This document shows, in pieces, positions 1-21,644 of a stretch of 24,987 bases of DNA (position 1 is its first letter; every line of letters starts with the position of its first letter). The stretch spans positions 1 through 24,987 of the IMG/VR virus record IMGVR_UViG_3300046028_000687; one strand, written 5' to 3'. Below the pieces are notes generated by a model that was not told the origin of the DNA, ran no database searches, and saw only the letters and a program-made list of their open reading frames with translations. A program made the position numbers and the translations under genes. The stretch is from a virus.

Positions 1-295
1 TTACATTGTTGATAGCTGTTACTATTACCGTAGCAGTACCTTGAGTAGAACCTGCCGCTGTAATAGCGTCTGTTGTTCCAAAGTCAAAATAACTAGCAGA
101 AATGACGTTAGCACCAGTAATATTACCACCAGTACCGGTGCCTAAAGTCAATGTACCTGTACTTGCATTAAACGCAAACTTAGTTGTAGTTGCCTTAGGT
201 GTTTGATTAGAACCAGTAGCACCAACCATGACAGGATACAATGCAGTAGTTGATGTATCTTGTGTAGCATTAATCGCTGTACTCGGTCCTGCTTG
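1..295 (-). other. leader-like module near the end of the visible collagen-like protein
   Basis: After the last Gly-X-Y block the frame reads [20 protein letters not shown], then [20 protein letters not shown] and [15 protein letters not shown]. The FxF-x-STGTL...NVISASY pattern repeats the N-terminal module at 8880-9325. The protein continues beyond the window. Confidence 0.6.
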
Positions 296-3200
296 ACCAG
301 AAACACCAGTAGTACCACTGAAACCTGACCAACCTGATCTTCCACTTACACCAGTAGTTCCTGAGAAGCCACTGACACCAGTAGTACCTGATGTGCCTGA
401 TATACCACTAGTTCCCGAGAAGCCACTGACACCAGTAGTACCAGAAACACCTGTCGTACCACTCCAACCAGATGTACCACTGATACCTGTAGTACCTGAC
501 CATCCCGATGTGCCACTAACACCAGTAGTACCACTAATACCAGTAGTACCACTCCATCCAGACACACCTGTTGTACCTGACGTGCCACTCCAGCCCGATG
601 TACCTGATATACCTGACCAACCACTTACACCACTTGTTCCTGATGTACCTGATGTGCCACTAACGCCTGTTGTGCCACTAGCACCTGACCAACCACTTAC
701 ACCACTTGTTCCTGATGTACCTGATGTGCCACTAACACCAGTAGTACCTGATGCACCTGACCAACCACTTACACCACTTGTTCCTGATGTACCTGATGTG
801 CCACTAACACCAGTAGTACCTGATGCACCTGACCAACCCGATGTGCCACTATCACCAACTCTACTGTAGTTAACAACTAAAGCATCATTGTTTGCAGGAG
901 CACTACCTGACAAGTATGCTACGGTTAATGTATAGTATGTTGTGTTATTGGTTATAGCAGTAACGTTAAATGCGGATTGTACAGCACTTGCATTGCTATT
1001 GTTTGTAATCAACAACTGAGCCTCGATTACGCTAGTACTCACCATCTGAGCTATCCAATTACCAAAACTTGTACCGTTAACGTCATTTACGTTAATGAAG
1101 ATAGAAGTAACGGATGCAATTGCCGCATTGTTGAAGCGTAGCGATCCATTAGAACTTACACCTGCAGTTACAGTTGAGTCAAAGTAGTAACGAACACCAG
1201 CTTTGTTACCTTGTGGGCCTGAGAATCCTGAAATACCTGTAGTACCAGAGACACCAGTCGTACCACTCCAACCTGATATACCACTAATACCAGTAGTACC
1301 ACTATATCCACTAATACCAGTAGTTCCTGAGAAGCCACTGACACCCGTAGTACCTGATGTGCCTGATATACCACTAATACCGGTTGTACCTGATGCTCCT
1401 GACCAGCCTGAAGTACCACTGATACCAGTAGTACCACTCCAACCAGAGACACCTGATGTTCCGCTTATACCACTCCATCCTGATGTACCACTTATACCAC
1501 TCCATCCTGATGTACCACTTACACCAGTAGTGCCACTCCAGCCACTTACACCCGTAGTACCTGATGTGCCTGAAACACCTGTAGTTCCTGACCAACCTGA
1601 TGTACCACTAGCACCACTCCAACCACTGACACCTGATGTACCACTCCAACCACTTACACCTGAACCACTGAAACCTGATCTACCACTGAATCCTGATGTG
1701 CCACTAAATCCTGAAGTACCTGATATACCTGACCAACCAGATACACCGCTCCATCCTGAAGTGCCACTGACACCTGAAGTACCTGAAGTACCTGACCATC
1801 CGCTAACACCTGTTGTACCTGACCAACCTGAAGTACCTGATATACCACTAGTACCTGACCAACCTGAAGTACCTGATATACCACTAGTACCTGACCAACC
1901 ACTAACACCTGTTGTGCCTGACGAACCCGATGTGCCGCTGATACCTGAAGTACCTGATATACCTGACCAACCAGATACACCGCTCCATCCTGAAACTCCG
2001 CTTGTACCTGAAGTACCTGACCATCCGCTAACACCTGTTGTGCCTGATGCTCCGCTTATACCGGTTGTGCCTGATATACCTGAAGTACCTGAGAATCCAC
2101 TAATACCGGTTGTACCCGATATACCTGATATACCTGACCAGCCTGATATACCTGATATTCCGCTAGTACCTGAGAATCCACTTACACCTGATGTACCTGA
2201 TATACCACTAGTACCTGATTCACCACTAATACCGGTTGTACCCGATATACCTGAAGTACCTGACCAGCCTGATCTACCTGATGTTCCACTTATACCACTT
2301 GCTCCACTAGCACCGCTAACACCTTGTACAAGTGCAAGAATGATTTCTAATCCATTTGTGAATCCAGTGGTACCAGTTCCACCTGAACTCAAGAATGTTA
2401 CAGGTAAAGTCCAATAATTGCCTACATCTGTTGTAGTTCCTGTTATCTCCCAACGTTGGAAGTTTGCACTATTAGACTTATCTTGTAATGTAATTGCTTC
2501 AGTCTGTGTTAACAATGCTAGATAGATATCAATATCAATACCATCGTTTGTTAACTTACTTACATTAAGTTGAGTAGCACTTGTCTGTGTTGCATTATTC
2601 CATAAGATATCGCCACTGCCTGGATCACCTGAAGTTGCAGAAGTATCAGCAAAATATTCAAAGATAGTTGAAGAAATACCAGGAATACCTGATGTTCCTG
2701 ATATACCACTAGTGCCTGAGAATCCACTAATACCAGTAGTGCCTGACGTACCACTGAATCCTGATACACCGGTAGTTCCTGAGAAGCCACTGAATCCTGA
2801 TCTACCTGAAGTTCCTGATCTACCACTTGTACCAGTGAATCCCGATGTACCACTGATACCTGAAGTACCACTGAATCCACTGACACCTGAAGTTCCTGAT
2901 ATACCACTAGTACCTGAGATACCACTAGTACCTGACCAACCACTAACACCTGTTGTTCCACTAATACCTGACCAGCCACTTATACCTGTTGTTCCCGATG
3001 TACCGGATGTTCCACTTTGGCCAGACCAGCCACTTACACCTGTAGTGCCAGACCAACCCGATGTACCACTAGTACCTGAAGTACCAGAGATGCCAGAGAT
3101 GCCACTCCATCCAGATACACCACTGATACCAGTAGTACCTGAATATCCACTAACGCCTGTTGTACCACTTGCACCACTAGTACCACTAAATCCTGAAGTG

Positions 3201-6200
3201 CCTGAAGTTCCACTTGTTCCTGAAAAACCACTTGTACCTGAAATACCCAATGTGCCACTATATCCAGATACACCAGATACGCCTGATGCGCCTGACCAAC
3301 CACTAACACCCGTTGTACCACTAGTACCACTCCAACCCGATGTACCACTGATACCCGTTGTACCTGACCAACCTGATATACCACTTGTTCCTGATACGCC
3401 TGACCAACCACTGACACCTGATGTACCTGATGTACCAGAGATACCTGACCAACCACTTGTTCCAGAGTAACCGCTAACACCAGTAATGCCGGATGTGCCG
3501 CTTTGGCCGCTCCAACCCGATGTACCTGATGTACCAGAGATACCTGACCAGCCACTGACACCCGTTGTGCCTGATGTACCAGAGATACCAGTAGTACCTG
3601 AGAACCCTGATGCACCTGAAGTACCACTATATCCACTGACACCTGTTGTGCCTGATGCGCCTGACCAGCCACTGACACCCGTTGTGCCTGTCGTACCACT
3701 GGCACCTGACCAACCACTTGTTCCTGAAACACCTGTAGTACCTGAAGCACCTGACCAACCACTGACACCCGTTGTGCCTGATGCGCCTGACCAGCCACTA
3801 ACACCTGAACCACTGAAACCACTTACGCCTGATGCACCTGATGTGCCACTATATCCAGATACACCTGTAGTGCCTGAAATACCTGAAGTACCAGACCAAC
3901 CACTAGTTCCGCTGATACCTGACGTGCCGGATACACCGGTTGTGCCTGACCAGCCACTAACACCCGTTGTACCACTAGTACCACTGATACCTGATGTACC
4001 GCTTACACCTGAGTAACCACTGATACCTGATGTACCGCTTACCCCCGAATCACCTTTAGGACCGATTGCGCCATCTAAGTTAATATACCAAGAGCTATAT
4101 GTTCCTGATCCTACAATACTCGTAATATTTACTGATAGAGCACCGGTACCGCTATTATAAGAAATAATAGGACCGTTCATCTCATTTGTAAGTGTATACG
4201 CAACAATAATGTCTTGGCCTATTGTGTATGCTAACCCTGTACCTACTGTTAAGTTTAATGTACCTAATGCAATAGTTAATGTATCTGAGCTTGTTGTAGC
4301 ATATTTGTCACCAATTTGACCACTAAAACCTGATAGACCTGATGTACCACTAATACCAGATATACCGCTGATACCTGACCATCCGCTGATACCTGATGTA
4401 CCGCTAGCACCAGTGATACCCGAGTACCCTGATGTACCTGATGTACCTGAGATACCTGACCAACCACTGACACCTGTATAACCTGATGTTCCGCTGACGC
4501 CTGAGATACCTGTTGTACCACTATATCCCGATGTACCTGATGTTCCTGATGTACCTGATGTACCGCTAAATCCTGAAATGCCTGATGTACCACTGAAACC
4601 TGATGTACCGCTAAATCCTGAAATGCCTGATGTACCACTGAAACCTGATGTGCCGCTAAATCCAGACTCGCCACTAAAGCCGCTGATACCAGATGTGCCA
4701 CTAAAACCTGAAATGCCTGATGTGCCACTGATACCAGATGTACCACTAATACCTGATGTTCCTGATGTGCCACTATATCCCGATACACCTGTCGTACCAC
4801 TGGCACCTGACCAACCACTTACGCCTGATTCACCTGATGTTCCGCTGATACCTGATGTACCACTCTCACCTGATGTTCCACTATATCCAGATTCACCTGA
4901 TGTTCCACTATATCCAGATTCACCTGATGTTCCACTAAATCCAGATTCACCTGACCATCCTGATGTACCACTGAATCCTGATGTGCCTGATGTACCACTG
5001 AATCCTGATGTACCTGATGCACCTGACCATCCACTTGTTCCACTAAATCCAGATTCACCTGATGTGCCTGATTCACCTGACCATCCACTTGTTCCACTGA
5101 CACCAGATGTACCTGATGCACCTGACCAACCACTTACACCTGTAGTGCCACTAGCACCAGTAAATCCCGATACTCCTGAAGCACCACTGAAGCCACTTAC
5201 TCCAGATTCACCTGATGTTCCACTAACGCCAGATGTACCACTGATACCAGACCAACCTGATGTTCCACTAACGCCAGATGTACCACTGATACCAGTAGTA
5301 CCACTCCATCCACTAACGCCAGATATACCAGATGTACCTGATTCTCCTGATGTCCCTGACTCACCGCTGAAACCACTTATACCTGATTCACCTGAGAAGC
5401 CACTGATACCTGACTCACCACTAAATCCACTTATACCTGAACCACTAAATCCACTTATACCTGAACCACTAAATCCACTTACACCTGATGGGCCTTGTAA
5501 CGGACCTATGTTAGACCAAGTGTCATCACCGTTACTTACGGCGCCGTCTCCTGCACTATAACCACCACCTGAATTTTCAACAATGTATAATGTACCTGCA
5601 GGTTCACCATTTGGTAAATATGTGTAATCAATCACGCTACCTGCAATATTAATAGATTCACCTGAGTAACCTGATATACCAGAAGTACCTGATTCACCAC
5701 TAAAACCACTTATACCTGACTCACCACTGAAACCACTTATACCTGAATCACCGCTGAATCCACTTACTCCTGAATCACCACTGAATCCAGATATACCTGA
5801 AGTACCTGAGTCACCGCTATAACCACTAATACCTGAAGTGCCTGATTCACCACTAATACCTGTATAACCGGAAACACCTGAAATACCTGTCGTACCCGAG
5901 ATACCTGAGGTGCCTGATGTGCCTGATGTGCCACTGAAACCACTTACGCCTGAACCACTATAACCTGAGATACCTGTCGTACCCGAGATACCTGATGTAC
6001 CAGTAAAGCCACTAATACCTGATGTGCCTGATACACCAGTAAAGCCACTTACACCTGATGTGCCGCTTACGCCAGACTCGCCACTCCATCCGGATGTTCC
6101 ACTGATACCTGATTGACCAGAAATGCCAGACTCACCACTCCAACCCGATGTACCGCTTGCACCTGATGTACCAGAGATACCAGAAGTACCTGAAATACCT

Positions 6201-9200
6201 GACCATCCTGAAATACCTGTAGTACCTGAATAGCCCGATGTGCCACTTACACCAGAGACACCCGTTGCACCACTCCAACCAGATACACCAGAAATACCAG
6301 TAGTACCTGATTCCCCACTATAACCTGACTCGCCACTATAACCTGACTTGCCACTATAACCTGAATCACCGCTATAACCTGAGATACCAGTAAAACCACT
6401 TATACCCGTATAACCTGAGATACCAGTAAAACCACTGATACCTGTATAACCTGAGATACCTGAGATACCTGATGTACCACTAATACCCGATGCACCCGAG
6501 ATACCTTCTACTAGAGCAAGAATCAATGGTATATCATTTGCAAAGCCTGTTGTACCTGTACCACCGGACGCTTGTAATGTTATAGTTAATGTCCAATATC
6601 CACTACCTTTGATCGGAGTACCGTCGATGAGCCAACGTTGAAAGTTAGCACTGTTTGATTTATCTTGTAGTGTAATAGTTTCAGTATCATCTAGTGTTGA
6701 CAGATACAAATCAATATCGATTCCGTTACTCGTTACATTGTTTACATTAATTTGATTGGCACTTGTCTGAGTAATATTGTCCCATAACAGTTTACCACTG
6801 CCTGGATTACCTGTCAAGTCAGTAGCATTAGCTGTATACTCAAAGATAGAAGATGATACACCGGCTATACCACTGGCGCCACTGAAACCACTTACTCCTG
6901 ATGCACCTGAGATACCGCTAATACCTGAAGCTCCACTGAAACCACTAATACCTGTGTAGCCACTAATACCGGTAGTTCCTGATTCTCCTGATGCTCCGCT
7001 GATACCGCTAGTACCTGAAGCTCCACTGAAACCACTAACACCTGAACCACTAAAACCACTAGTACCAGATTCACCAGATATACCAGACCAACCGCTTACA
7101 CCGGTAGTTCCTGAATATCCAGAAACACCTGAGATACCTGATGTTCCACTGATACCTGAGATACCACTAGTACCGGATTCACCACTATATCCACTTACAC
7201 CGGATGTGCCTGATTCGCCACTCCACCCACTTGTACCACTGTATCCTGATGTACCACTGATACCCGAGATACCTGACCAACCACTGACACCTGTAGTACC
7301 TGAGGTACCGCTGATACCGCTAGTACCAGATTCTCCTGATGTGCCTGATGATCCGGATTCACCTGAAATACCTGAATCTCCACTGAAACCACTGATACCA
7401 GATGTGCCACTCCATCCAGATGTGCCACTAATACCAGTAGTGCCTGACCATCCCGATGTACCTGAGTACCCTGATGTACCACTAATACCACTAGTACCGG
7501 ATTCTCCGGATGCGCCACTAGTACCTGATTCTCCTGATGTGCCTGAAGCTCCGCTGAAACCACTAATACCTGATGTACCACTAATACCTGATGTACCACT
7601 GATACCACTAGTACCTGACCATCCAGATGTACCTGATTCACCGGATGATCCGGATTCACCACTATAACCTGAGATACCTAATGCACCACTAGTACCTGAT
7701 GTGCCACTAATACCTGATGTTCCTGAGGCACCTGACCATCCAGAAACACCTGATCCAGAATATCCTGATATACCTGAACCACTAAATCCACTTACACCTG
7801 ATGGACCTTGTAACTGACCAATATTAGTCCAAGTATTATCACCATTACTTACTGCACCATCACCTGCACTATAACCACCACCTGAATTTTCAACAATGTA
7901 TAATGTACCTGCAGGTTCACCATTTGGTAAATATGTGTAATCAATCACGCTACCTGCAATGTTGATGCCTCGGCCCGATTGACCTGATATACCAGAGAAA
8001 CCTGATGTGCCAGTAAATCCAGAAATACCAGAGCCAGACATACCACTATATCCAGAGACACCTTGTATACCGCTAGTACCTGACTCACCTGAGAAGCCAC
8101 TGACACCTGTTGTACCACTAAATCCTGAGATACCAATAGTACCACTAAATCCTGAGTCACCGCTATAACCACTAATACCTGAAGTGCCTGATTCACCACT
8201 AGTACCAGATGAACCTGATGCACCTGACCAACCACTTACACCAGACGTACCTGATAAACCACTAGTACCTGAGGCTCCCGATGTACCTGAGGCTCCCGAT
8301 GTACCTGAGATACCAGTAGTACCACTCCAACCTGATGTGCCACTATAACCTGATGTACCTGAAATTCCTGTTGTACCTGATATACCTGATGCGCCTGACC
8401 ATCCACTTATACCTGATGTACCGCTAGCGCCTGAATAACCACTGATACCTGATGTGCCACTAGCGCCTGTATAACCTGATGTGCCAGTAAAACCACTGAC
8501 ACCGGTTGTGCCGGAATAACCACTGATACCTGATGTGCCTGACCAGCCTGATATACCTGAACCACTAAATCCTGAGATACCAGTTGTTCCGCTTAAACCC
8601 TTTTGACCAGAAGCGCCTGTATAACCTGATATACCTGAACCACTAAAACCACTAAGACCTGTATAACCTGATTTACCTGATATACCACTAAGACCTGTTG
8701 TTCCACTAAATCCTGATCTACCTGAGAAGCCACTGACACCAGTGAATCCACTAAATCCTGAAATACCTTGCTGACCGCTAGTGCCAGACCAACCTGATTT
8801 GCCACTAGCTCCTGATGTACCACTAGTGCCTGAAGTTCCTGATATGCCAACAATACCTGTAATATTACTACCATCACCATATAGATAACTTGCTGATACT
8901 ATATTAGCAGTTACGTTACTTTCAGCAACAAGATAATCTATATTCAATGTACCTGATGTTTTGTCAAAAGTAAATGCAGAATTACCACCAAAAATACCTG
9001 CGTCATTAAACTGTACTTGTGTATTTGATCCTCCCGGTACTCCACTACCTCCACCGTTACCGGTTTGTGCGGTCCAGCTTAAGTTGCCGGAGCCATCAGT
9101 TTGCAAAACGTATCCGTTTTCGCCACCAAGTATCGATACGTTACCAACGTCACCCAAGGCAATATTGCCGGATATGTTGAGTGTGTTTGCTGATACACTA

Positions 9201-9325
9201 TTAGCAACTACGTTGCCACTAGGTACCATAACGTTAGTAACAACGTTACCATTAGCGTCAATTACGGTGTTTGCGGGTATGCCTGTACTAAAGCCACCCA
9301 GAGAGTTAAACGGTTCAGCTGCCAT
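1..9325 (-). CDS. giant modular collagen-like (Gly-X-Y) fibre protein, 3' end outside window
   Basis: One frame stays open from the ATG at 9325-9323 to the window edge, at least 3108 codons. I translated every non-repeat segment and spot-checked the repeats; the phase never changes. The N-terminal ~150 residues are a typical phage fibre/structural leader (motifs TQVQFNDAG and [10 protein letters not shown]). Seven Gly-X-Y blocks follow, about 2280 residues in total, separated by six globular insertions and ending in a further leader-like module. Position X is often W, F, Y, I, V, L, T or A; position Y is almost always Ser or Thr; Pro is rare. Likely role: a virion fibre or surface filament, by analogy with collagen-like phage fibres. 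An AGGA ribosome site lies about 7 nt before the ATG, and a late-promoter motif lies at 9356-9363. The tail or head attachment point is unknown. Gene identity as a structural fibre is well supported; receptor binding is inference. Confidence 0.88.
611..826 (-). repeat. 72-nt tandem repeat (3 copies) in a Gly-X-Y block
   Basis: Units start at 611, 683 and 755, each 72 nt (24 residues, eight Gly-X-Y triplets). The second and third are identical. The first differs near its end, and a partial fourth starts at 827. The unit length is a multiple of 9, so the triplet register is kept. Confidence 0.85.
865..1195 (-). other. globular insertion module E
   Basis: About 110 residues, containing [40 protein letters not shown] and [18 protein letters not shown]. 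It resembles module C in outline (a beta-rich domain ending in a YYTL/YWTL strand) and may be a distant relative. It lies between two Gly-X-Y blocks. Confidence 0.6.
2320..2690 (-). repeat. globular insertion module C, copy 2
   Basis: Contains [67 protein letters not shown] and [10 protein letters not shown]. It is diverged at amino-acid level from the copy at 6505-6868 but clearly homologous. This pair is therefore older than the module B pair, whose core is identical at DNA level. Confidence 0.75.
4045..4320 (-). other. globular insertion module D ([12 protein letters not shown] type)
   Basis: About 90 residues containing [47 protein letters not shown] and [14 protein letters not shown], then [10 protein letters not shown] leading back to Gly-X-Y. 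This module recurs in phage fibre and tail proteins of aquatic and other phages (recalled, not searched). It occurs once here. Confidence 0.7.
4563..4652 (-). repeat. 45-nt tandem repeat (2 copies) in a Gly-X-Y block
   Basis: Units at 4563-4607 and 4608-4652 differ at one base. A third unit begins and diverges after about 11 nt. Again the period (15 residues) preserves the Gly-X-Y register. Confidence 0.8.
5485..5670 (-). repeat. globular insertion module B, copy 2
   Basis: Near-duplicate of the module at 7797-7972. The only differences are at the edges (for example [14 protein letters not shown] here against [14 protein letters not shown] there). It interrupts the Gly-X-Y shaft between two repeat blocks. 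Confidence 0.75.
5550..5647 (-). repeat. 98-nt exact direct repeat, copy 2
   Basis: Identical to 7863-7960 at every base I compared, 2313 nt away in the same orientation and the same reading frame. Confidence 0.85.
6505..6868 (-). repeat. globular insertion module C, copy 1 ([14 protein letters not shown] type)
   Basis: About 120 residues with [67 protein letters not shown] and [10 protein letters not shown]. It is related to the module at 2320-2690 along its whole length, so it is a mobile or duplicated fibre domain. Each copy is followed directly by a Gly-X-Y block. Confidence 0.75.
7797..7972 (-). repeat. globular insertion module B, copy 1 ([10 protein letters not shown] type)
   Basis: About 58 residues without Gly-X-Y periodicity, containing [39 protein letters not shown] and GPSGVSG at its end. 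The second copy is at 5485-5670. The two share a perfect 98-nt stretch. Many phage fibres carry such small beta-rich modules; the function is unknown. Confidence 0.75.
7863..7960 (-). repeat. 98-nt exact direct repeat, copy 1
   Basis: Base-for-base identical to 5550-5647 by eye, inside the two module B copies. The flanking bases differ on both sides. Perfect identity including silent positions indicates recent duplication or gene conversion. Confidence 0.85.
8880..9325 (-). other. N-terminal leader module of the collagen-like protein
   Basis: Residues 1-149. It contains TQVQFNDAG near residue 100 and the sequence [14 protein letters not shown], followed by [22 protein letters not shown]. This arrangement is common at the start of phage fibre and structural proteins, where it precedes a repetitive shaft. 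A related module returns at 1-295. It probably anchors or trimerises the shaft (inference). Confidence 0.7.
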
Positions 9326-9355
9326 TGTTTTATCCTAAAATATGTCTCAATAATA

Positions 9356-9363
9356 TATTTATC
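9356..9363 (-). promoter_or_regulatory. late-promoter-like GATAAATA before the collagen-like gene
   Basis: On the minus strand this reads GATAAATA, one mismatch from the T4 late promoter TATAAATA. It lies 30 nt before the ATG, which leaves room for a short leader with the AGGA ribosome site. Confidence 0.55.
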
Positions 9364-9412
9364 TTGGGCAGTTAAATAAACTTTAGAAATAAGTAACCCT
9401 GGATATCTTTTT

Positions 9413-9778
9413 ATGCTAACAAGACAACCTCATCGCCCATTCTGTGAAAACTGTAAAGTATCACTAGCAAAAACTAATGGATTAAGCAAGCATGGCTTTA
9501 CTAAGTGGCACAAATACTGTTCATCGTGTGCAAAAGCAATTTATGATTCAAAGTATGGGCATAGATTGAATAAGAAACAAAAGTGTGATAAGTGTAGCTT
9601 TGTTCCGCAGGATAAGTGTCAACTTGATATTGTTTACAAAGATAGTAACAAGAAAAATAAAGACAAGTCTAACATACGTACATTATGTGCTAATTGTAAT
9701 AGGTTGTTTCAAAAGAAACTACGAGAGCAGAAAAAGACTCTGTTAGATATAACAGTAGATGCAGATGTTATTTTATGA
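9413..9778 (+). CDS. HNH-like zinc-ribbon protein, catalytic His apparently lost
   Basis: 121 residues and basic. Three CxxC pairs (C11/C14, C36/C39, C58/C61) precede the segment CQLDIVYKDSNKKNKDKSNI, which is followed by LCANCNRL (C92/C95). This matches the small phage HNH proteins that usually read C-Q-L-D-x-D-H-x-D-G-N...N-L-x-T-L-C-A-N-C-H. Here the D-H pair at about 74-75 is V-Y and the final His is Asn. The fold and zinc site look preserved, but nuclease activity is doubtful. The gene stands alone on the plus strand between two minus-strand genes, and its 3' end overlaps the desaturase by 11 nt. No strong ribosome site is visible; a TTAAATAA lies about 35 nt upstream. It could be a DNA-binding remnant or a homing-type cargo gene. 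Confidence 0.7.
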   Translation: MLTRQPHRPFCENCKVSLAKTNGLSKHGFTKWHKYCSSCAKAIYDSKYGHRLNKKQKCDKCSFVPQDKCQLDIVYKDSNKKNKDKSNIRTLCANCNRLFQKKLREQKKTLLDITVDADVIL

Positions 9779-10469
9779 TTGCTAACTTTAGAAACGCTAG
9801 CATTCTCAAATACATGTAACCAATGTCAAATTCAAATTTTGTACGACTCAACTTTGCACTAGCGGGATTTAAGTGATGGTTGTTATGTAATTCTTCTCCA
9901 CCAATGACTATACCCCAAGGACTAATGTTTCTACTGTTATCTTTAGTTTCCCCATTACGATAACCTAAGTAATGACCTACTCCATTTATAACACCTGCTG
10001 CCCAAAATGGTATCCAAATCATTTGAACTAACCATATAACGACACCTATCATACCAAACAACAAAACATCTATCACTAACATTAACACAACTCCTAAGTA
10101 ATTATAAGGAGTATAGATTTTTCTCTCTATCCAATCGTCTGGTGTTCCTCTGCCAAAGTTAACAATCATCTTAGCGTTCTTACCTGCAAGGTAGTAGTAA
10201 TAAACTCCCCGTAGTAATATGTTCCATATACCGTATACAACAGGACTATGCGGATCACCTTCTTTGTCTGTAGTACTGTGATGTTTTCTATGTATAGCAA
10301 CCCACTGTTTAGTAATCATACCGGTTGTTAACCAGAGCCAAAAACGCATAAAGTGTTCTAGTATTGGATGAAACGTGATTCCTTTGTGTGCTTGGCCACG
10401 ATGTAAGAATAGAGTAACACATACTATAGTGATGTGTGTAACTATTAAAGTGTATAATATTGCGTTCAT
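9768..10469 (-). CDS. membrane fatty-acid (acyl-CoA type) desaturase
   Basis: 233 residues from the ATG at 10469. It carries the three histidine boxes of the membrane di-iron desaturases: HRGQAH (23-28), HRKHH (60-64) and HNNHH near the C-terminus in GGEELHNNHH, plus the conserved GHYLGYRNGETKDNSRN. Hydrophobic segments lie at about 4-22, 38-56 and 130-165. Enzymes of this family insert a cis double bond in acyl chains, typically at delta-9, using O2 and an electron donor; none is encoded nearby. As a phage gene it is an auxiliary metabolic gene that may change host membrane fluidity (inference). The longer frame to 10556 starts with TTG and would run through a terminator, so I reject it. CATAAATA lies only 4 nt before the ATG. 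Confidence 0.85.
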   Translation of the reverse strand: MNAILYTLIVTHITIVCVTLFLHRGQAHKGITFHPILEHFMRFWLWLTTGMITKQWVAIHRKHHSTTDKEGDPHSPVVYGIWNILLRGVYYYYLAGKNAKMIVNFGRGTPDDWIERKIYTPYNYLGVVLMLVIDVLLFGMIGVVIWLVQMIWIPFWAAGVINGVGHYLGYRNGETKDNSRNISPWGIVIGGEELHNNHHLNPASAKLSRTKFEFDIGYMYLRMLAFLKLAIIK

Positions 10470-10473
10470 TAGA

Positions 10474-10481
10474 TATTTATG
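10474..10481 (-). promoter_or_regulatory. late-promoter-like CATAAATA just before the desaturase
   Basis: Minus strand reads CATAAATA, ending 4 nt before the ATG and just after the terminator of the capsid unit. If it is used as a -10-type late element, transcription would begin at or next to the start codon (leaderless mRNA). The position between a terminator and a gene supports use, but the spacing is unusual. Confidence 0.45.
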
Positions 10482-10486
10482 CCCAA

Positions 10487-10512
10487 TAAAAAAGAGCACC
10501 GAAGTGCTCTTT
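10487..10512 (-). terminator. rho-independent terminator after gp23
   Basis: Nine-base perfect stem (10491-10499 with 10504-10512) closing a TTCG tetraloop on the minus strand, the very stable C(UUCG)G type, followed by a T-tract. It lies 57 nt past the gp23 stop and ends the capsid transcription unit before the desaturase. Confidence 0.85.
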
Positions 10513-10527
10513 GATTCCTTCCCGTAA

Positions 10528-10545
10528 CACAGACCGTAGTCTGTG
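10528..10545 (-). other. stable hairpin between gp23 and its terminator
   Basis: Seven-base perfect stem (10528-10534 with 10539-10545) and a four-base loop, with no T-tract. It lies in the 3' untranslated part of the gp23 message and could protect the very abundant capsid mRNA from 3' exonucleases (inference). Confidence 0.6.
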
Positions 10546-10568
10546 CTCTCGAACAAGAAGATTTCGAC

Positions 10569-11771
10569 TTATTGGAATGTCAAGTTCTGAACAGCGATTT
10601 CACCAACGTAGTCAGCCGCGTTACCGAAGCTGGATGCAGTGTTAGTCAATTCGATGTAACCATAACGTGTCATGAATGATACGACTGGTTCGAATGTTGA
10701 CGGATCTAGAACAACACCAGAACTCATCAATGGAATGTATGGGCAATAGAATGCTGCCGCATCAGTCTCAGATGAACCCTTGTATCCAACTAGAACAGGT
10801 GTAGTATCAGGAGCATAAGAGTCAACAAAAACTCTCATAGCGCCGTTCAATGTACCAACAAACTTAGTGTTTGTAGGTGCTTCGAATGTACCTTCTGTTG
10901 TACGTGCAAACGCAGAAGTAGTTGCAGATTGCAATACTGTCAATGCGGCAGAAGAAACAACAGCCCAGTTACCTGCGCCACGACGTGTACGTTGGGCGAT
11001 CAAGTTAGCAACACGGTTGATAAGAACAGCTAAGGCAGCGTGTTCGTCACCAACGTAAGTAGCTGTACCAGATACAGTAGCTTGGTTGTATGTATACTCT
11101 GTACTTGCTAGAGTACGTAGAGATAACAAGATTTCTTGGTCAATTTCAGCAGTAATTTCTTGTGCTAGAGCAGCCATGATTTCTGCTTCAACGTCAATAC
11201 CATGTTGAGACTGTGCATCTTGCGCAGCTTCAAATGTCCAACGTGCTTGCAACTTACGTGACTTAGCTTCAACAGCTTGTCTCAAGATTTGAACGCTGAT
11301 CTGACGACCGCCGTTACCTTCTAGAGCCGCAGTGTCGTTAGCTGTGTAGTAGCTAGTTGTATCACCAGCAGAACCACTTGGCTGACGTGAATAAGCCTGT
11401 GCAATCTTGAATGGACTCAATGCTTCTTCACCAGCTGATACGCTAGTTTGTGCCGCACTGTTGTCTGTCAAGCTGTTAGCATAACGTACACGTAGAGTGT
11501 GAATTTGACCAACTGGGCCAGTCATAGGCTGAACACCTACTAGCTCGTTAGCGATAACTGTAGGCATAACACGACGGATAACCGGTAAAATAACACGGTT
11601 AAGAGTTGCAATGTTACCTGCAGTTGTAGTACCGGCAGAAGATTCAGCTAGTAACTGTTTTTTGGTGTTTTCTAAGATAACACCCATTGTTGAGCGGCGT
11701 GTGCCCTTTAAGCCTTCTAACAGGGCCTCTTTGGTTTCGCCCCAACGGCTTTCTAATAGAACTTTTGACAT
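10569..11771 (-). CDS. gp23: major capsid protein gp23
   Basis: 400 residues. The middle segment RQAVEAKSRKLQARWTFEAA, then QDAQSQHGIDVEAEI and LAQEITAEIDQEIL, is the signature of T4 gp23-type capsid proteins; TRYGYIEL near the C-terminus also fits. It forms the hexamers of the head shell. The N-terminal ~45 residues look like a cleavable delta region, and LLAE-SSAG near residues 40-47 fits the gp21 protease rule (L/I-x-E then a small residue). It is shorter than T4 gp23 (521 residues), so shell-surface insertions are likely reduced. A good AGGAGA ribosome site lies upstream and the gene is last in the 68-21-22-23 unit, followed by two hairpins. Position directly after gp22 is as in T4. Confidence 0.95.
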   Translation of the reverse strand: MSKVLLESRWGETKEALLEGLKGTRRSTMGVILENTKKQLLAESSAGTTTAGNIATLNRVILPVIRRVMPTVIANELVGVQPMTGPVGQIHTLRVRYANSLTDNSAAQTSVSAGEEALSPFKIAQAYSRQPSGSAGDTTSYYTANDTAALEGNGGRQISVQILRQAVEAKSRKLQARWTFEAAQDAQSQHGIDVEAEIMAALAQEITAEIDQEILLSLRTLASTEYTYNQATVSGTATYVGDEHAALAVLINRVANLIAQRTRRGAGNWAVVSSAALTVLQSATTSAFARTTEGTFEAPTNTKFVGTLNGAMRVFVDSYAPDTTPVLVGYKGSSETDAAAFYCPYIPLMSSGVVLDPSTFEPVVSFMTRYGYIELTNTASSFGNAADYVGEIAVQNLTFQ

Positions 11772-11799
11772 TTTAATATTCTCCTATAGATGTCGTTTT

Positions 11800-12903
11800 T
11801 TATAGCCCTGCCAGACGCTTGATATCGATAACGTTATCACGTTGTTCCATATCAACTTCTTTGATTTGTTTGGCAGTTTTATCACCGGTTGCTTCTACAA
11901 TAACTGATTCTGATAGAGTAGCTTTCGCTTTCTTTTCAGTGCCAGTATTAAGAACTGCCGGTAAATACTTATCGAAAGTAGCTTTCAACTTAGTTGTTTG
12001 CACACTTTCTAGTAAAGTTTTCATCGTAGAAGCTTTTTCTTCGTTAAGTGAACTTAGCAATTCAGCCATAGTCTTTTCACGTAGATTACTTTCTTTGATG
12101 ATTCGAACTTCACGTTCTTTTGATTCAACTAATTGCTTGGCACTAGATAAAATCTGTGCCGATTCTGCAAGTTGTTGTTCTTTTTCTTGTAGTTTAGCTA
12201 CTAGCTTGCGAGTTTCTGCTTTCTCATTTAAATGAGTAACAGAGAATTCGCCGGCGAAAGCTTCAAACAGTTTGCGACCAAAAGTGTTTTCACGTGCAAT
12301 CTGAATGTCTTCCTTAAGCTGAGATAGTTCGCCCTGAAGATGAGTGGTAACTGCTGTACTAAGTCTCTTTGCACTTTCAGAAACAAAACGTTTCTTCAAT
12401 GCTTCGAGTTGTTGACGACCCTCTGAAACCAATTTAACTTTAGCTTCAACCACTGCTTGTTTGTCTTGAGTGAATTCTTTAATTTCACGGGCAAGAGCAT
12501 GAACAACGAATTGTTCTAACTTGGTTTGACTTTCTTTCATTGATTTGCGATCACTACGTAATTCTTTAATTTCTTCGGCTAATTTAGTAACCATAAAATC
12601 ATTGAATTTAACTGCGTTTTCACGTAGTTTTTGTTGTGCTCGTACACGGTCTTCATTCATAGCCTGTCTCTCAATTTGAAATTCTGAAATTTCAGATTGT
12701 AGGCTGTCAGTCATCATCTTATCTAGGGCTTCAACCATCACGCTTCTGTCGTGTTCGTAACGGCGTGCGAACTCCTCACGTAATTCAGCACGAACTTGCT
12801 CACGAGCCTCAACTAACTTTGATTCCCATGCTTCATTTAACTGAGCACCAACTTCATCATTAATTAGACCGCTTTCAAGTAATGGTTTGATAGCATCAAA
12901 CAT
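11800..12903 (-). CDS. gp22: prohead core scaffolding protein gp22
   Basis: 367 residues and highly charged, predicted almost entirely alpha-helical and coiled-coil (long runs of E, K, R, Q and A from about residue 20 to 300). It begins MFDAIKPLLESGLINDEV, the typical N-terminus of gp22 proteins in T4-like phages. It builds the internal core on which gp23 assembles and is then degraded by gp21. It is longer than T4 gp22 (269 residues). It lies between gp21 and gp23 in T4 order, 12 nt after gp21 and 28 nt before gp23. The ribosome site is AAGGGG. Identification rests on position, composition and the N-terminal motif. Confidence 0.88.
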   Translation of the reverse strand: MFDAIKPLLESGLINDEVGAQLNEAWESKLVEAREQVRAELREEFARRYEHDRSVMVEALDKMMTDSLQSEISEFQIERQAMNEDRVRAQQKLRENAVKFNDFMVTKLAEEIKELRSDRKSMKESQTKLEQFVVHALAREIKEFTQDKQAVVEAKVKLVSEGRQQLEALKKRFVSESAKRLSTAVTTHLQGELSQLKEDIQIARENTFGRKLFEAFAGEFSVTHLNEKAETRKLVAKLQEKEQQLAESAQILSSAKQLVESKEREVRIIKESNLREKTMAELLSSLNEEKASTMKTLLESVQTTKLKATFDKYLPAVLNTGTEKKAKATLSESVIVEATGDKTAKQIKEVDMEQRDNVIDIKRLAGL

Positions 12904-12915
12904 GCTTATTCCCCT

Positions 12916-13551
12916 TTATTTGATTTTCAAGTCTTTGATAAGGCGCATTACTTCCTCTTTCAAAAACTTTTCTACTTTTTTGTCACCCTGTGCATCTTTT
13001 GCGATATCCAACAATTTATGACCATGACGCATATTCATCATACCTTCATATATTGCTTTAGGATAAGCATTAGGAGCGCTTGGTTGAGCGACAATATCGA
13101 CAGTGACTATTTCAAAGTCACTGACACGGCCGTCCATATCGTTAACGTTTCCGCTACCTCTACTAGACACGCCAAGTTTGACACCACTCTGCAACATGGT
13201 AGTTACTAACTGACCCATTGGAGTTGGTAATATCTTTAGTTTTCCAAAACCGTTTGCACCATCCATCCACATGCTTGTAATCATGTGTGATACACGGTCT
13301 AAGTTGATCTTTAAGTCGTCAGGATGATCCACTTCACCTAGAACTGAATAACCTGTTTTGATTTGTTCATTTAGAGTATTAACGGCAGATTCAATTTCAG
13401 AAACGGGGTAAACACGCTCATTAGCGTTTTTAACCCCACCCTGAATGAAGATCCCTTTCATGTAGAGATTCTTCTTGTCGCCGTCACCTTCACTTTCGAC
13501 CACCATACCGGCTCTGTCGAATGTTAGATGCTCCTTGAGATACAAAGCCAT
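12916..13551 (-). CDS. gp21: prohead core protein protease gp21
   Basis: 211 residues, almost the same as T4 gp21 (212). The motifs GEVDHP (His at 76) and GVSSRGSG (Ser at 129/130) give the expected His and Ser of the T4 prohead serine protease (S78-type fold), and NANERVYP is also typical. It is carried into the prohead, cleaves scaffold and capsid proteins after L/I-x-E, and destroys itself. It starts 12 nt after the gp67/68-like gene, and gp22 follows with a similar gap, so the head genes are read as one unit. Very sure. Confidence 0.95.
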   Translation of the reverse strand: MALYLKEHLTFDRAGMVVESEGDGDKKNLYMKGIFIQGGVKNANERVYPVSEIESAVNTLNEQIKTGYSVLGEVDHPDDLKINLDRVSHMITSMWMDGANGFGKLKILPTPMGQLVTTMLQSGVKLGVSSRGSGNVNDMDGRVSDFEIVTVDIVAQPSAPNAYPKAIYEGMMNMRHGHKLLDIAKDAQGDKKVEKFLKEEVMRLIKDLKIK

Positions 13552-13563
13552 TGCTCTCAGACC

Positions 13564-14454
13564 TTACTTAACGATTCTTCTTGTAGTCTTGCGAGACTCA
13601 GCTACTGGGCTCTTGATAGCGCCGGCTGCGTCTTTAGTGACTGGCTTAGGTGTTGACTCACCTTTTTCGTTGAAATTACCTGCGCCTGGAGAATTTTTAA
13701 ATGATCCTGCACCTTTAACAGATGTTTCACCTTTAGCATATGCATTGCTAGGAGCCTTTGGGCTTGATGGTACAGCTTCTGATTGACCAGAGAACTTAAC
13801 TGGTCTGCTATCCATACCAGCTTGTCCACTGTTTTGTAGACTTGGGCTCTTTGTTTGAGCACCATTGTCGCCCATTTGACCGTACTTGTTATATGTTGAT
13901 CCACCAACTTGCTTTAGTTGAACAGCTTCCATAACTGATTCTTCTAAATCATCTTCTTCATCGATTTCTTCGGCTTCCATCATGTCATCATCGCCCATGT
14001 CGTCAGCACCCATGTCGTCAGCACCCATGTCGTCCATGTCGTCACCGCCCATGTCATCATCGCCGCCGCCCATGATTTGTTCAAACTCTGCCATTAATTG
14101 GTCTAGCTTGTCTTCGATACGAATTACAGCATCTTCAACTTCTTCACCACCTTCGTCACCCATGTCGTCAGCATCGATGTCAACTATTTCATCATCGCCT
14201 TCGCCGTCATCAGCATCGAATTCCATTTCTTCATCGTCTTCAGTCATGCCGCCGGCTTCTTCAGCATTGATTTCATCCATCAAGTCACCAACTTGACCGA
14301 CCATGCCGCCTTCGCCCATCATCTCTTCATCCATGATAGACTCATAAATCTCACGTGATTTTTCTACCACGATTTCGTGAAATAATTCACGTGCTTGTTC
14401 TTCGTTCTCATTGATAATCATATCAATAAGTTGTTCAAATTTTTTGTTGTCCAT
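13564..14454 (-). CDS. acidic prohead core protein, gp67/gp68-like
   Basis: 296 residues. The N-terminal 45 residues (NENEEQARELFHEIVVEKSR, then EIYESIM) match the helical start of T4-like prohead core proteins found between portal and protease. Residues 50-175 are extremely acidic, with repeated DDMGADDMG-type runs; the last ~110 residues are Ser/Gly/Pro/Lys-rich and end basic (RKTTRRIVK). The acidic part may bind the positively charged scaffold or act as a spacer (inference). Its place between portal and gp21 equals T4 genes 67/68, and one long protein here may replace both. The ribosome site AGGAGA is strong, and the late motif ACTAAATA starts the unit 36 nt upstream. Confidence 0.82.
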   Translation of the reverse strand: MDNKKFEQLIDMIINENEEQARELFHEIVVEKSREIYESIMDEEMMGEGGMVGQVGDLMDEINAEEAGGMTEDDEEMEFDADDGEGDDEIVDIDADDMGDEGGEEVEDAVIRIEDKLDQLMAEFEQIMGGGDDDMGGDDMDDMGADDMGADDMGDDDMMEAEEIDEEDDLEESVMEAVQLKQVGGSTYNKYGQMGDNGAQTKSPSLQNSGQAGMDSRPVKFSGQSEAVPSSPKAPSNAYAKGETSVKGAGSFKNSPGAGNFNEKGESTPKPVTKDAAGAIKSPVAESRKTTRRIVK

Positions 14455-16621: not shown

Positions 16622-19600
16622 TCAAACTTGTGAATACTGTAATATCTTACCTTGTATATCATTACTTTCACTCATTTTGTTTACCAATTCAGTCATTGAT
16701 TTAGCGACTTCAGCCATAACACTGTCATCTGCTCCTTCTACTATCGGTGCAGCCGCATTTTGAGCTAAGTCTTTTCCAAGTTGTTGAACAACAGTCTTGA
16801 ATTCTTCTTGCAATTGCTTGATAGCATCAGTAAGAGATGTTTTATCCATATCCATAATCTCTTTCAATCTATCACCTAATATATTGCCAGCATCTGGGCC
16901 AAATTGTTCTGTTCCCACTTTAGCCGGGCCCATGTCGTAATTGGTTGCCATTCCCGAATGTAATATCTTCTTCCAAGCTTCAGTGTCAGTGATTGTCTGA
17001 GTTTTTTCGTCATATGCCCCAATCTTACTTGCCATTCCTTGAACAGCTTTCAAGTCAGTAGACATAGGACCTGCATTGTATCCAGTATATTCATTCATGC
17101 CAGCGAACGTCGGACCCATTTCTTCTGAGAACAACTTTACTGATTTCTTAGCTATCGCAGTAGTATCTATTGCAGGAATTTCATTAGTATCTCCACCAGT
17201 AGTTACATTCCCCGCCATCTTACTAAAAGATGCAAGTTCTTTCTTAGCTAAACTTTCAATCTTATCAGTAGGTATTACTGTCTCATTGCCATGCAATTCA
17301 ACAATGTATCCTGTTTCTGGACCCTCAAATACTCCGCCTTTTTGTGCTTTTGGTATGTCCGACTTTTTAGTATCGGCAGATGCGACCATTGTACCACCTG
17401 ATGATGGTTGAATTCCTTGAATATCTTTAGAGCCTGCATATGCAGTAACCTTATTCATGACTTCACCGGCTAAATAACTGCCCTTCTTGCGAACATCTCC
17501 ACCTGCAATCTGACTAGTAGCTAATACATTTGCATCTTGTTGGGACATATTCTTTTCATCTATGCCCATAGCCTTAGCCATTCTAGCCTTGCCTTTTTCC
17601 ATATACCAGGCTACAACTTCAGCCGCAACCTTAGGATCATTAACTAAGTCAGGATCTTTAACTAGTCTATCATCACCAAACACTGCCTGTGATGCTTGTG
17701 CATAGTTGCTCTTACCGGTAAGTTGAATGTATCCACGACCTCTATATTTCCATCCATCACCGGGGTCAAGATTACCCATGCTACGACCAATCTTAGTATC
17801 CTTGCCGTACATGAACTCGCCCATGCCTTCTTCACTAGACTTGATTTTGTTTAATTCCTCATCAGTCTTTCCGGCTGCTCTTGATCCAAATATGCTACGA
17901 ATACGTTCATTACTTGTCTTGCTGTAATTAAGATTTTCATTGACGACCTTGCCACCGGATTCTTTCATGACGTTGCCCAACACAGCATTAAGATATTTTT
18001 CATCTCCCATGCCACGCTTCATCAATGCGGCTTTAACGTCACCTAGATTCTGTTTAACATCTTGGTCTTTAGCTGGCTTTACTCCAGTACCACCACCCAT
18101 ACCTGCTAGAGGAGGTGCTGATGGAGGCTTCATACCCAAGCCACTATCTGCGGGTTTTTCTGCCGGTTTTCCACCTCCACCACTACTGCCAAAAATTCCG
18201 CCTAAGCCTTCAGGTGGTTTTATTCCTGTACCACTACCTGTTTCCTGTGTTACTACTTTGATGTTGCTTGCAAATTTAGACAAGTCAAATCCAACTGACC
18301 TGAATACATCTTTGAGTTTATCATTCGCACCTTTAAGTCCGTCAACTTGATCCTCTGATGCTTCAAGCTTTTCTTCTTCTAATTTGTTTAGCTTGAGGAT
18401 AGAAGTAGATAACTTGTCAAAACTAGCATCTGTATCACGCATGGTTTTCTTTAACTCTGCTAGTGCTTCAATTTCTTCTTCTAATTCTTCATCACGCTCC
18501 GCGGAGTTATCACTCAATCCGGCAGTTTTCATACCAGTGCCCAACGGGGTAATCATTTCTTTACCATGTAGCTCTACCGGATATCCTGACTTAGGTCCGT
18601 CGAATATACCACCAATTGAGGCTTTGGGTGCATTTGCCTTTGCTTTCTCATTTGCAATTGCTCTATCCATTTGTTGTAGGATATTTTTGTACGCAAGTTC
18701 GCTTTGTGCGCTTTTTGAAACTGGGCCCTTTTTCTCAAATATTTCTCGTGTTTCTTCTAGTTCTTTTACTTTTCTTTGTATAGCATCATTACTTGTATCT
18801 TTTGGTGCTTCTGGTGCTTTTGCTACTACAGTCGGTTGATCCGGTGCTTTTGCTACTGCTGTCTGGGGCACCGCTTTTACTTCCTGTACAGGTCTATCTA
18901 TCTTAGCTGCGCCAACTTTTTCTGCACGTTCTGCAAATTCTTCTTTTGCTTTCATGTCAGCAATCATTCGTGCTACATTTTCAGCTCCCTGTACTCTTTG
19001 TGCTGATGCGTCTTTAGGAAGATTCTTTTTGCGTGATTCCAATTCTTTATCAAATAATTCTTTCTTTCTTTCAAGATATTCTTTGTATAATTTTTCATCT
19101 TTCTTTGCAAGTTCCATCTCACTAAATGTAAATGATTTAGTTTCGGATTTGGTTACTGATTTAGTAGCTACATTTCCTGTAGATTCCGGTGTTCCTAGTT
19201 TTGTCATTGGTGTCATTGCACCTAATGCTTTCATTAGATTTGAATCTTCTACTTTGACAATGGATACTTTAACTACATCACTTCCTGCTTTGGTATCTTT
19301 AGCAAGATTATCGTCTTTCTTAGCTTCTGCTTTCTTAGAAGCTTCGTCAACTTTCTTGTCAGCATCACTAGTCATCTTAGCGATGCCGCCACCAGCAACT
19401 TCACCAATAGCTTTACCTGCTTTACTACCCAGCCAACCGCCTAATGCGGCTCCAATGATACCACCTACTGCTGTACCTAATACAGGAACAACAGAACCAA
19501 TTGCGGCACCTGCGGCTGCACCTTTTAGTGCGCCGGCTGTACCACCAATTGCTGTTCCTGCACCACCGCCAACTGCTTCGCCCTTTTCAACTCTAGCTTC

Positions 19601-21625: not shown

Positions 21626-21636
21626 GTATTTTACCA

Positions 21637-21644
21637 AATAAATA
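21637..21644 (+). promoter_or_regulatory. late-promoter-like AATAAATA for gp26-gp51
   Basis: Plus-strand AATAAATA lies 53 nt before the gp26 ATG in the divergent gap. It overlaps the leader region of the opposite gene, giving face-to-face promoters. Confidence 0.4.

Follow-up and report, generated by a model that had tools for sequence, protein, structure and literature searches.

The window, the whole 24,987-nucleotide stretch analysed here, most likely comes from a freshwater-type jumbo phage and encodes a very long fibre of nearly Pro-free Gly-X-Ser/Thr repeats. Directly behind complete copies of this gene in related phages lies a conserved sugar-transferring cassette, which suggests that the phages themselves sugar-coat their collagen-like fibres. 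Our best reading, to which we give about an even chance, is an extended trimeric collagen-like shaft that is O-glycosylated by phage enzymes at the Ser/Thr residues of the Y position.

On the minus strand, the fibre gene occupies 2..9325 and reads through 3,108 stop-free codons from its ATG at 9325. Its 3′ end is cut by the window edge, and the frame is still open at base 1. The size of over 9.3 kb given in the earlier note holds for the ORF, but the reading frame is incomplete here, as comparison with the complete copies in contigs L002 and L003 places about 76 codons outside the window. Runs of at least five consecutive triplets comprise 766 Gly-X-Y triplets (2,298 residues), close to the roughly 2,280 residues noted earlier, although the shaft is discontinuous, being broken by six folded inserts (four types: NC1 and NC2, present twice each, and NC3 and NC4, once each) and by nine irregular G-S-G register shifts. 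The longest uninterrupted run has 126 triplets and occurs twice. Counted in runs of at least eight triplets (n = 759), the Y position is Ser in 652 and Thr in 84 triplets (736/759, 97%), and the X position is Thr (242), Ile (135), Val (87), Trp (72), Phe (62), Ala (43), Tyr (38), Glu (34), or Pro (3). Aromatic residues (Trp, Phe, or Tyr) account for 172 of the 759 X positions (23%), and Pro for 0.4% of X and a single Y. These counts bear out the earlier description of a long, Pro-poor fibre with Ser/Thr at nearly every Y and frequent aromatic residues at X. The part of the ORF within the window contains 24 Pro and no Cys in total. The Pfam Collagen model (PF01391) matches residues 276–442 with 85.3 bits (curated cut-off, 27.2), and the fibre lacks the high Pro content at X and/or Y of classical Pro/Hyp-stabilised collagen. 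Long Pro-rich ORFs on the plus strand (e.g., 1203–2417) were rejected as frame artefacts of the Gly-X-Y repeat. The gene is neither unique nor the exceptionally large investment that had been supposed: it is one of many Gly-X-(Ser/Thr) stretches in a pattern scan of IMG/VR, where other contigs hold 940–952 such triplets.

The N-terminal non-collagen domain (residues 1–166; 8828..9325, minus strand, as for all the following parts) probably attaches the fibre to the virion, and relatives whose shafts differ retain it at the corresponding place behind gp23. Seven Gly-X-Ser/Thr shaft blocks and the six inserts follow. Block 1 (residues 157–453; 7967..8857) leads to NC1a (7748..7984), which is also present in cyanophage S-CAM7, and block 2 (residues 526–824; 6854..7750) leads to NC2a (6491..6883), which is common to phages P19250A and HTVC010P. 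Block 3 (residues 941–1224; 5654..6505) and NC1b (5435..5674) precede block 4 (residues 1297–1674; 4304..5437), which consists of 126 unbroken triplets. NC3 (4058..4333) is a predicted beta domain with a pLDDT of ~70–90, and block 5 (residues 1752–2218; 2672..4072) contains the second 126-triplet run. NC2b (2306..2701), block 6 (residues 2335–2708; 1202..2323), NC4 (842..1228), and block 7 (residues 2824–3015; 281..856) complete the shaft, and the window ends within the start of the C-terminal non-collagen domain (2..313).

A scan of IMG/VR with insert NC2 as the query gave 15 loci. Contig L002, which is 98% identical to the window over aligned stretches, carries the full fibre gene (1320–10574; 3,084 residues), and the more distant relative L003 (megablast pieces of 76–90%) carries an entire gene of ~3,050 residues. 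Both fibres terminate in a small C-terminal domain. The L002 fibre is about 100 residues shorter than that of the window, indicating that the repeat number differs among close relatives. Between the window fibre and that of L003, Gly differs at 0.1%, X at 59%, and Y at 15% of positions, and 92 of the 104 changes at Y are exchanges between Ser and Thr; the alignment of the repeats may be off by entire triplets, so that the comparison of the three position classes is robust and the per-site counts are less so. The Ser codons at Y belong to both families (TCN, 392; AGY, 265), two disjoint sets with no single silent step between them. Together with the constraint on Y, this indicates that Ser/Thr at Y is maintained by selection and does not reflect recent copying of one DNA unit. 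An origin of the repeat by chance or as a DNA-level artefact was rejected on the same grounds.

The window also encodes gp23, gp20, gp21, and a T4-type baseplate protein, which identify a T4-like myovirus. The best gp23 matches among isolates are mostly jumbo phages (284–469 kb), and gp23 proteins 94% and 80% identical to that of the window are encoded on contigs of 303 and 374 kb, respectively, so that the window most probably derives from a jumbo phage genome.

The cassette lies beyond the edge of the window and is conserved in relatives. In L002, it begins 52 bp after the fibre stop, and the contig covers GT252, GT678, and the start of GT325 (10623–14152). The whole set (GT252, GT678, GT325, MT163, p150, and p148) is present in contig L005 (3528–8689). 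The first gene encodes a 252-residue GT2 enzyme (GT252) and the second a 678-residue GT2-methyltransferase-FkbM protein (GT678). GT325 comes next, followed in L005 by a 163-residue methyltransferase (MT163), p150, p148, and ribonucleotide reductase. The GT2 model (PF00535; curated cut-off, 23.3 bits) matches GT252, GT678, and GT325 with 53.7, 55.5, and 25.0 bits, respectively, and FkbM and other methyltransferase domains also occur in the cassette. The catalytic DDD motif (DxD-type, metal-binding), which was checked in GT325 only, is invariant over 25 GT325 sequences. The C-terminal part of GT325 bears a GxGDH motif, and p150 scores 21.8 bits against the GT9 model (PF01075), just below the cut-off of 22.0, with a weak alignment to WaaC (E = 0.08). 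From these sequence features, we infer that the C-terminal part of GT325 and p150 may be two halves of a GT9-like (heptosyltransferase-like) enzyme.

A GT-A fold is predicted for GT325 (model pLDDT, 91.6), and polypeptide O-GalNAc-transferases (GT27; Z up to 18.6 over ~250 residues) are among the best structural matches of the model, tied with RmlT, SpsA, and AvpGT. The predicted fold is thus compatible with a polypeptide acceptor and also with other roles of GT-A enzymes. A GT325 profile found no match among PDB sequences. Relatives of GT325 occur in at least 596 stretches in IMG/VR and in only 4 stretches among 84,980 prokaryote species genomes, all of them in metagenome-assembled genomes.

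The association between the cassette and the fibre was examined in both directions. For the forward count, IMG/VR was scanned, ignoring the cassette, with a DNA pattern that requires 25 Gly-X-(Ser/Thr) triplets in a row, and at least 120 stretches were found. The fibres among the matches listed fall into three classes: aromatic X with Ser at Y, Ser/Thr at X (GTSGTSG), and Pro/Ala at X with Thr at Y. After removal of near-copies, at least 2 kb of downstream DNA was required and the cassette was sought within 6 kb. Among the matches listed, 13 of 18 aromatic-X fibres had it behind them, against 1 of the 33 Gly-X-Y fibres of other composition (Fisher p = 2e-7, with the class boundary of 15% aromatic X chosen after viewing the data). 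When 3 kb was required, the corresponding numbers among the matches listed were 8/12 and 1/30 (p = 3e-5). The sole non-aromatic fibre with the cassette among them (L112) is Pro-poor, with Ser at Y and 9% aromatic residues at X, and five of the 18 aromatic-X fibres listed have no cassette inside 6 kb. The Pro-free GTSGTSG fibres among the matches listed are without this cassette, though they would be expected to need stabilising as much. GT2 searches of whole contigs pointed in the same direction as the forward count.

In the reverse direction, a FastTree tree of 76 GT325 sequences has an aromatic Gly-X-Ser fibre in 47 of 52 decidable rows, a proportion biased upward because some rows were fetched via the fibre. 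Their distribution across the tree is the sounder evidence: fibre-bearing rows lie on all deep branches, including the two deepest, and the five rows without a fibre are scattered at the tips. Close relatives of the window phage serve as a natural control. Many contigs with a gp23 79–97% identical to that of the window retain both the HNH gene and the N-terminal fibre domain at the same site and carry other shafts, and a GT2 gene above the cut-off is found in one of 35 such relatives, far from gp23. Contigs that have the Gly-X-Ser shaft (L240, L235, and L236/L237; gp23 95–98%) have the cassette. In L261 and L262 (contigs of 200 kb and 16 kb; gp23 94–95%), the cassette follows gp23 without a Gly-X-Ser fibre. 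Within this clade, every fibre seen was accompanied by the cassette, but the cassette also occurred where the fibre was lacking. An exclusive pairing was therefore rejected, and the claim that the cassette is dedicated to this fibre alone is weakened.

The cassette might instead modify the host surface (O-antigen or LPS core) and prevent superinfection or re-adsorption, leaving the fibre unmodified, with both genes residing in one host-recognition island. Phage glycosyltransferases close to fibres are usually interpreted as host-surface modifiers (PMC7029224, PMC10202952), as are those in the host-recognition regions of pelagimyophages, which are read as acting on the host O-antigen (O-chain) (PMC7029224). 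GT9 enzymes act on LPS, and the retention of the cassette without the fibre in L261/L262 also fits this possibility. However, the cassette tracks one composition class of shaft and not fibres at large, GT2 genes are nearly lacking in close relatives with other shafts, and the fibre–cassette partnership is found in phages as different as a 38.7-kb siphovirus and jumbo T4-like phages. We consider this explanation somewhat unlikely.

Shared hosts, or joint transfer of the fibre and its neighbours as a module, could also produce the pairing between genes that are biochemically unlinked. The constant N-terminal domain, behind which shafts swap at one locus, and the occurrence of NC1/NC2 inserts in P19250A and cyanophage S-CAM7 would agree with such transfer. 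Yet the pairing holds across enzymes that are only 43–60% identical and across different phage types, and losses of the fibre appear only at scattered tips of the GT325 tree, which makes this explanation quite improbable.

The earlier note had proposed two forms for the shaft, a polyglycine-II bundle and an extended helix. In host-guest peptide work, aromatic residues and Thr at the X position and Ser at the Y position count among the poorer choices for an unmodified triple helix, making an added stabiliser plausible. The polyglycine-II bundle of phage S16 gp38 (PDB 6F45), likewise a Gly-rich phage tail-fibre protein, has short helices connected by turns, and snow-flea antifreeze protein is small, disulfide-bonded, and compact. 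Such a bundle would agree with Gly at every third residue, a small polar Y, and aromatic X residues pointing outward, but it requires many short helices joined by turns and was rejected as very unlikely for a Cys-free fibre of more than 3,000 residues in which runs of up to 126 triplets (612 in contig L104) are unbroken by periodic turns. The single-chain prediction suggested earlier as a check (AlphaFold2 on a repeat block) gave no compact fold (pLDDT ~25–30), although such a model is weak evidence. A Foldseek search with a model of the repeat plus NC3 gave no convincing match (best E, 0.0095). The extended helix better fits the long turnless runs, and its length of ~650–657 nm (2,298 residues × 0.286 nm) is arithmetic only.

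In the extended-helix reading with phage-encoded glycosylation, the shaft would be a probably homotrimeric, collagen-like helix nearly without Pro, with folded domains capping it at the N and C termini and the small folded inserts interrupting it. This fibre class, with aromatic or aliphatic X and Ser at Y, appears to be co-inherited with the glycosylation cassette, usually directly downstream, which would supply GT2 enzymes, an apparent GT2/GT9-half fusion, a separate GT9-like half, and methyltransferases. These enzymes would most likely O-glycosylate the regularly spaced Ser/Thr residues along the shaft before assembly, yielding a stiff, soluble, sugar-coated shaft that keeps a receptor-binding tip far from the particle. 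The suggestion in the earlier note that these Ser/Thr residues could carry sugars thus receives strong, though indirect, support from the cassette, which lay outside the sequence available to it. A sugar on Ser/Thr at Y is plausibly the simplest candidate for the stabiliser, and packing of the aromatic X residues against the sugars is speculation. A more elaborate version, which we regard as rather doubtful, is a dedicated collagen-glycosylation system of aquatic phages, in which a phage-specific enzyme set (the fusion, the separate GT9 half, and the methyltransferases) would decorate hundreds of Ser/Thr in each chain with capped or methylated sugars. Aromatic X residues would pack on these sugars, and the glycans would replace Pro/Hyp in stabilising a triple helix that extends for hundreds of nanometres.

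Known prokaryotic and phage collagen-like proteins (PF01391; Scl, BclA, and EPcl) share the Gly-X-Y repeat, the folded caps, and the Pfam match with the window fibre. In contrast to its 0.4% Pro and 23% aromatic residues at X and its Ser at Y, their X positions are 19–31% Pro on average, and Y is often Thr (PMC8968730). BclA is glycosylated, and its sugar has been proposed to act in hydration (PMC8968730); the O-glycan-bearing Gly-Pro-Thr triplets typical of BclA are not a feature of the window fibre, given its three Pro residues at X. In mimivirus, as in this phage group, one virus encodes Pro-poor collagen-like proteins together with a modifier; in mimivirus this is L230, an enzyme that glycosylates viral collagens by glucosylating hydroxylysine (PMC9614988), and here the cassette is the candidate. 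The likely sites here are Ser/Thr, the enzymes come from other families, and no lysyl hydroxylase was seen here. Mycobacteriophage virions carry glycans (Freeman et al. 2023, cited in PMC12619734), at the C-termini of capsid and tail-tube proteins and not on a collagen-like fibre. The jumbo phage XacN1 has also been observed to contain glycoproteins (PMC5852040). Glycosylation of phage virions is seldom documented. In the open-access literature, we found no report that connects a glycosyltransferase cassette with Pro-free collagen fibres of phages. The stability of a collagen helix free of Pro/Hyp is an open structural question. If the link is true, widespread aquatic phages supply a natural, genetically compact Pro-free collagen with its own modifying enzymes, and some glycosyltransferases in phage host-recognition regions now assigned to host-surface modification acquire an alternative reading.

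The idea of fibre glycosylation can now be tested in an isolate, Methylophilaceae phage P19250A (KX815270), which has the only GT325 homologue found among 50,697 phage records (58% identity). The phage is described in the literature as a siphovirus infecting freshwater LD28 (PMC8163748). Its gene 0023 encodes a 1,201-residue Gly-X-Ser fibre, compared with ~3,180 residues for the complete fibre of the window phage, and the two fibres share aromatic X residues and NC1- and NC2-type inserts. The P19250A fibre gene is followed by a methyltransferase gene and homologues of GT325 and the GT9-like p150, and unlike in relatives of the window phage, no GT252 or FkbM gene lies directly downstream. Gene 0023 is annotated as a 'tail length tape-measure protein'.

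The fibre and the cassette of glycosyltransferase and methyltransferase genes occur together on contig L322. Binning placed this contig in a genome of the archaeon Nitrosotalea, but it is probably a misbinned phage contig. Close relatives of the window phage (L261 and L262) retain the whole glycosyltransferase cassette after gp23, and the Gly-X-Ser fibre is absent from both. The GTSGTSG fibres, found at L104 and other loci, form a separate proline-free class, the longest of which runs to 612 unbroken triplets; the cassette was not found with this class at any locus whose sequence covers the downstream DNA.

In the Methylophilaceae phage P19250A (L241), gene 0023 of KX815270 (3753-7358) is annotated as a 'tail length tape-measure protein'. 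Contrary to this annotation, it is a collagen-like fibre. In cyanophage S-CAM7, a gene annotated as glycosyltransferase family 25 (L243, 1451-2188) has a tail-fibre gene directly downstream. Glycosyltransferase family 25 is the family of the animal collagen galactosyltransferases.

Directly upstream of the fibre gene in the window and antisense to it lies a small HNH-endonuclease-like gene (9413-9778, plus strand). Its position beside the fibre is retained in many relatives that carry different shafts, and the gene could promote the exchange of fibre modules. A fatty-acid desaturase gene (PF00487; 9768-10556, minus strand) is located between gp23 and the fibre; among the relatives, some have this gene and others lack it. 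The window also encodes, on the minus strand (16622-21637), a 1,671-residue protein with weak tape-measure matches and a chitinase/endolysin-like domain near residues 1192-1357.
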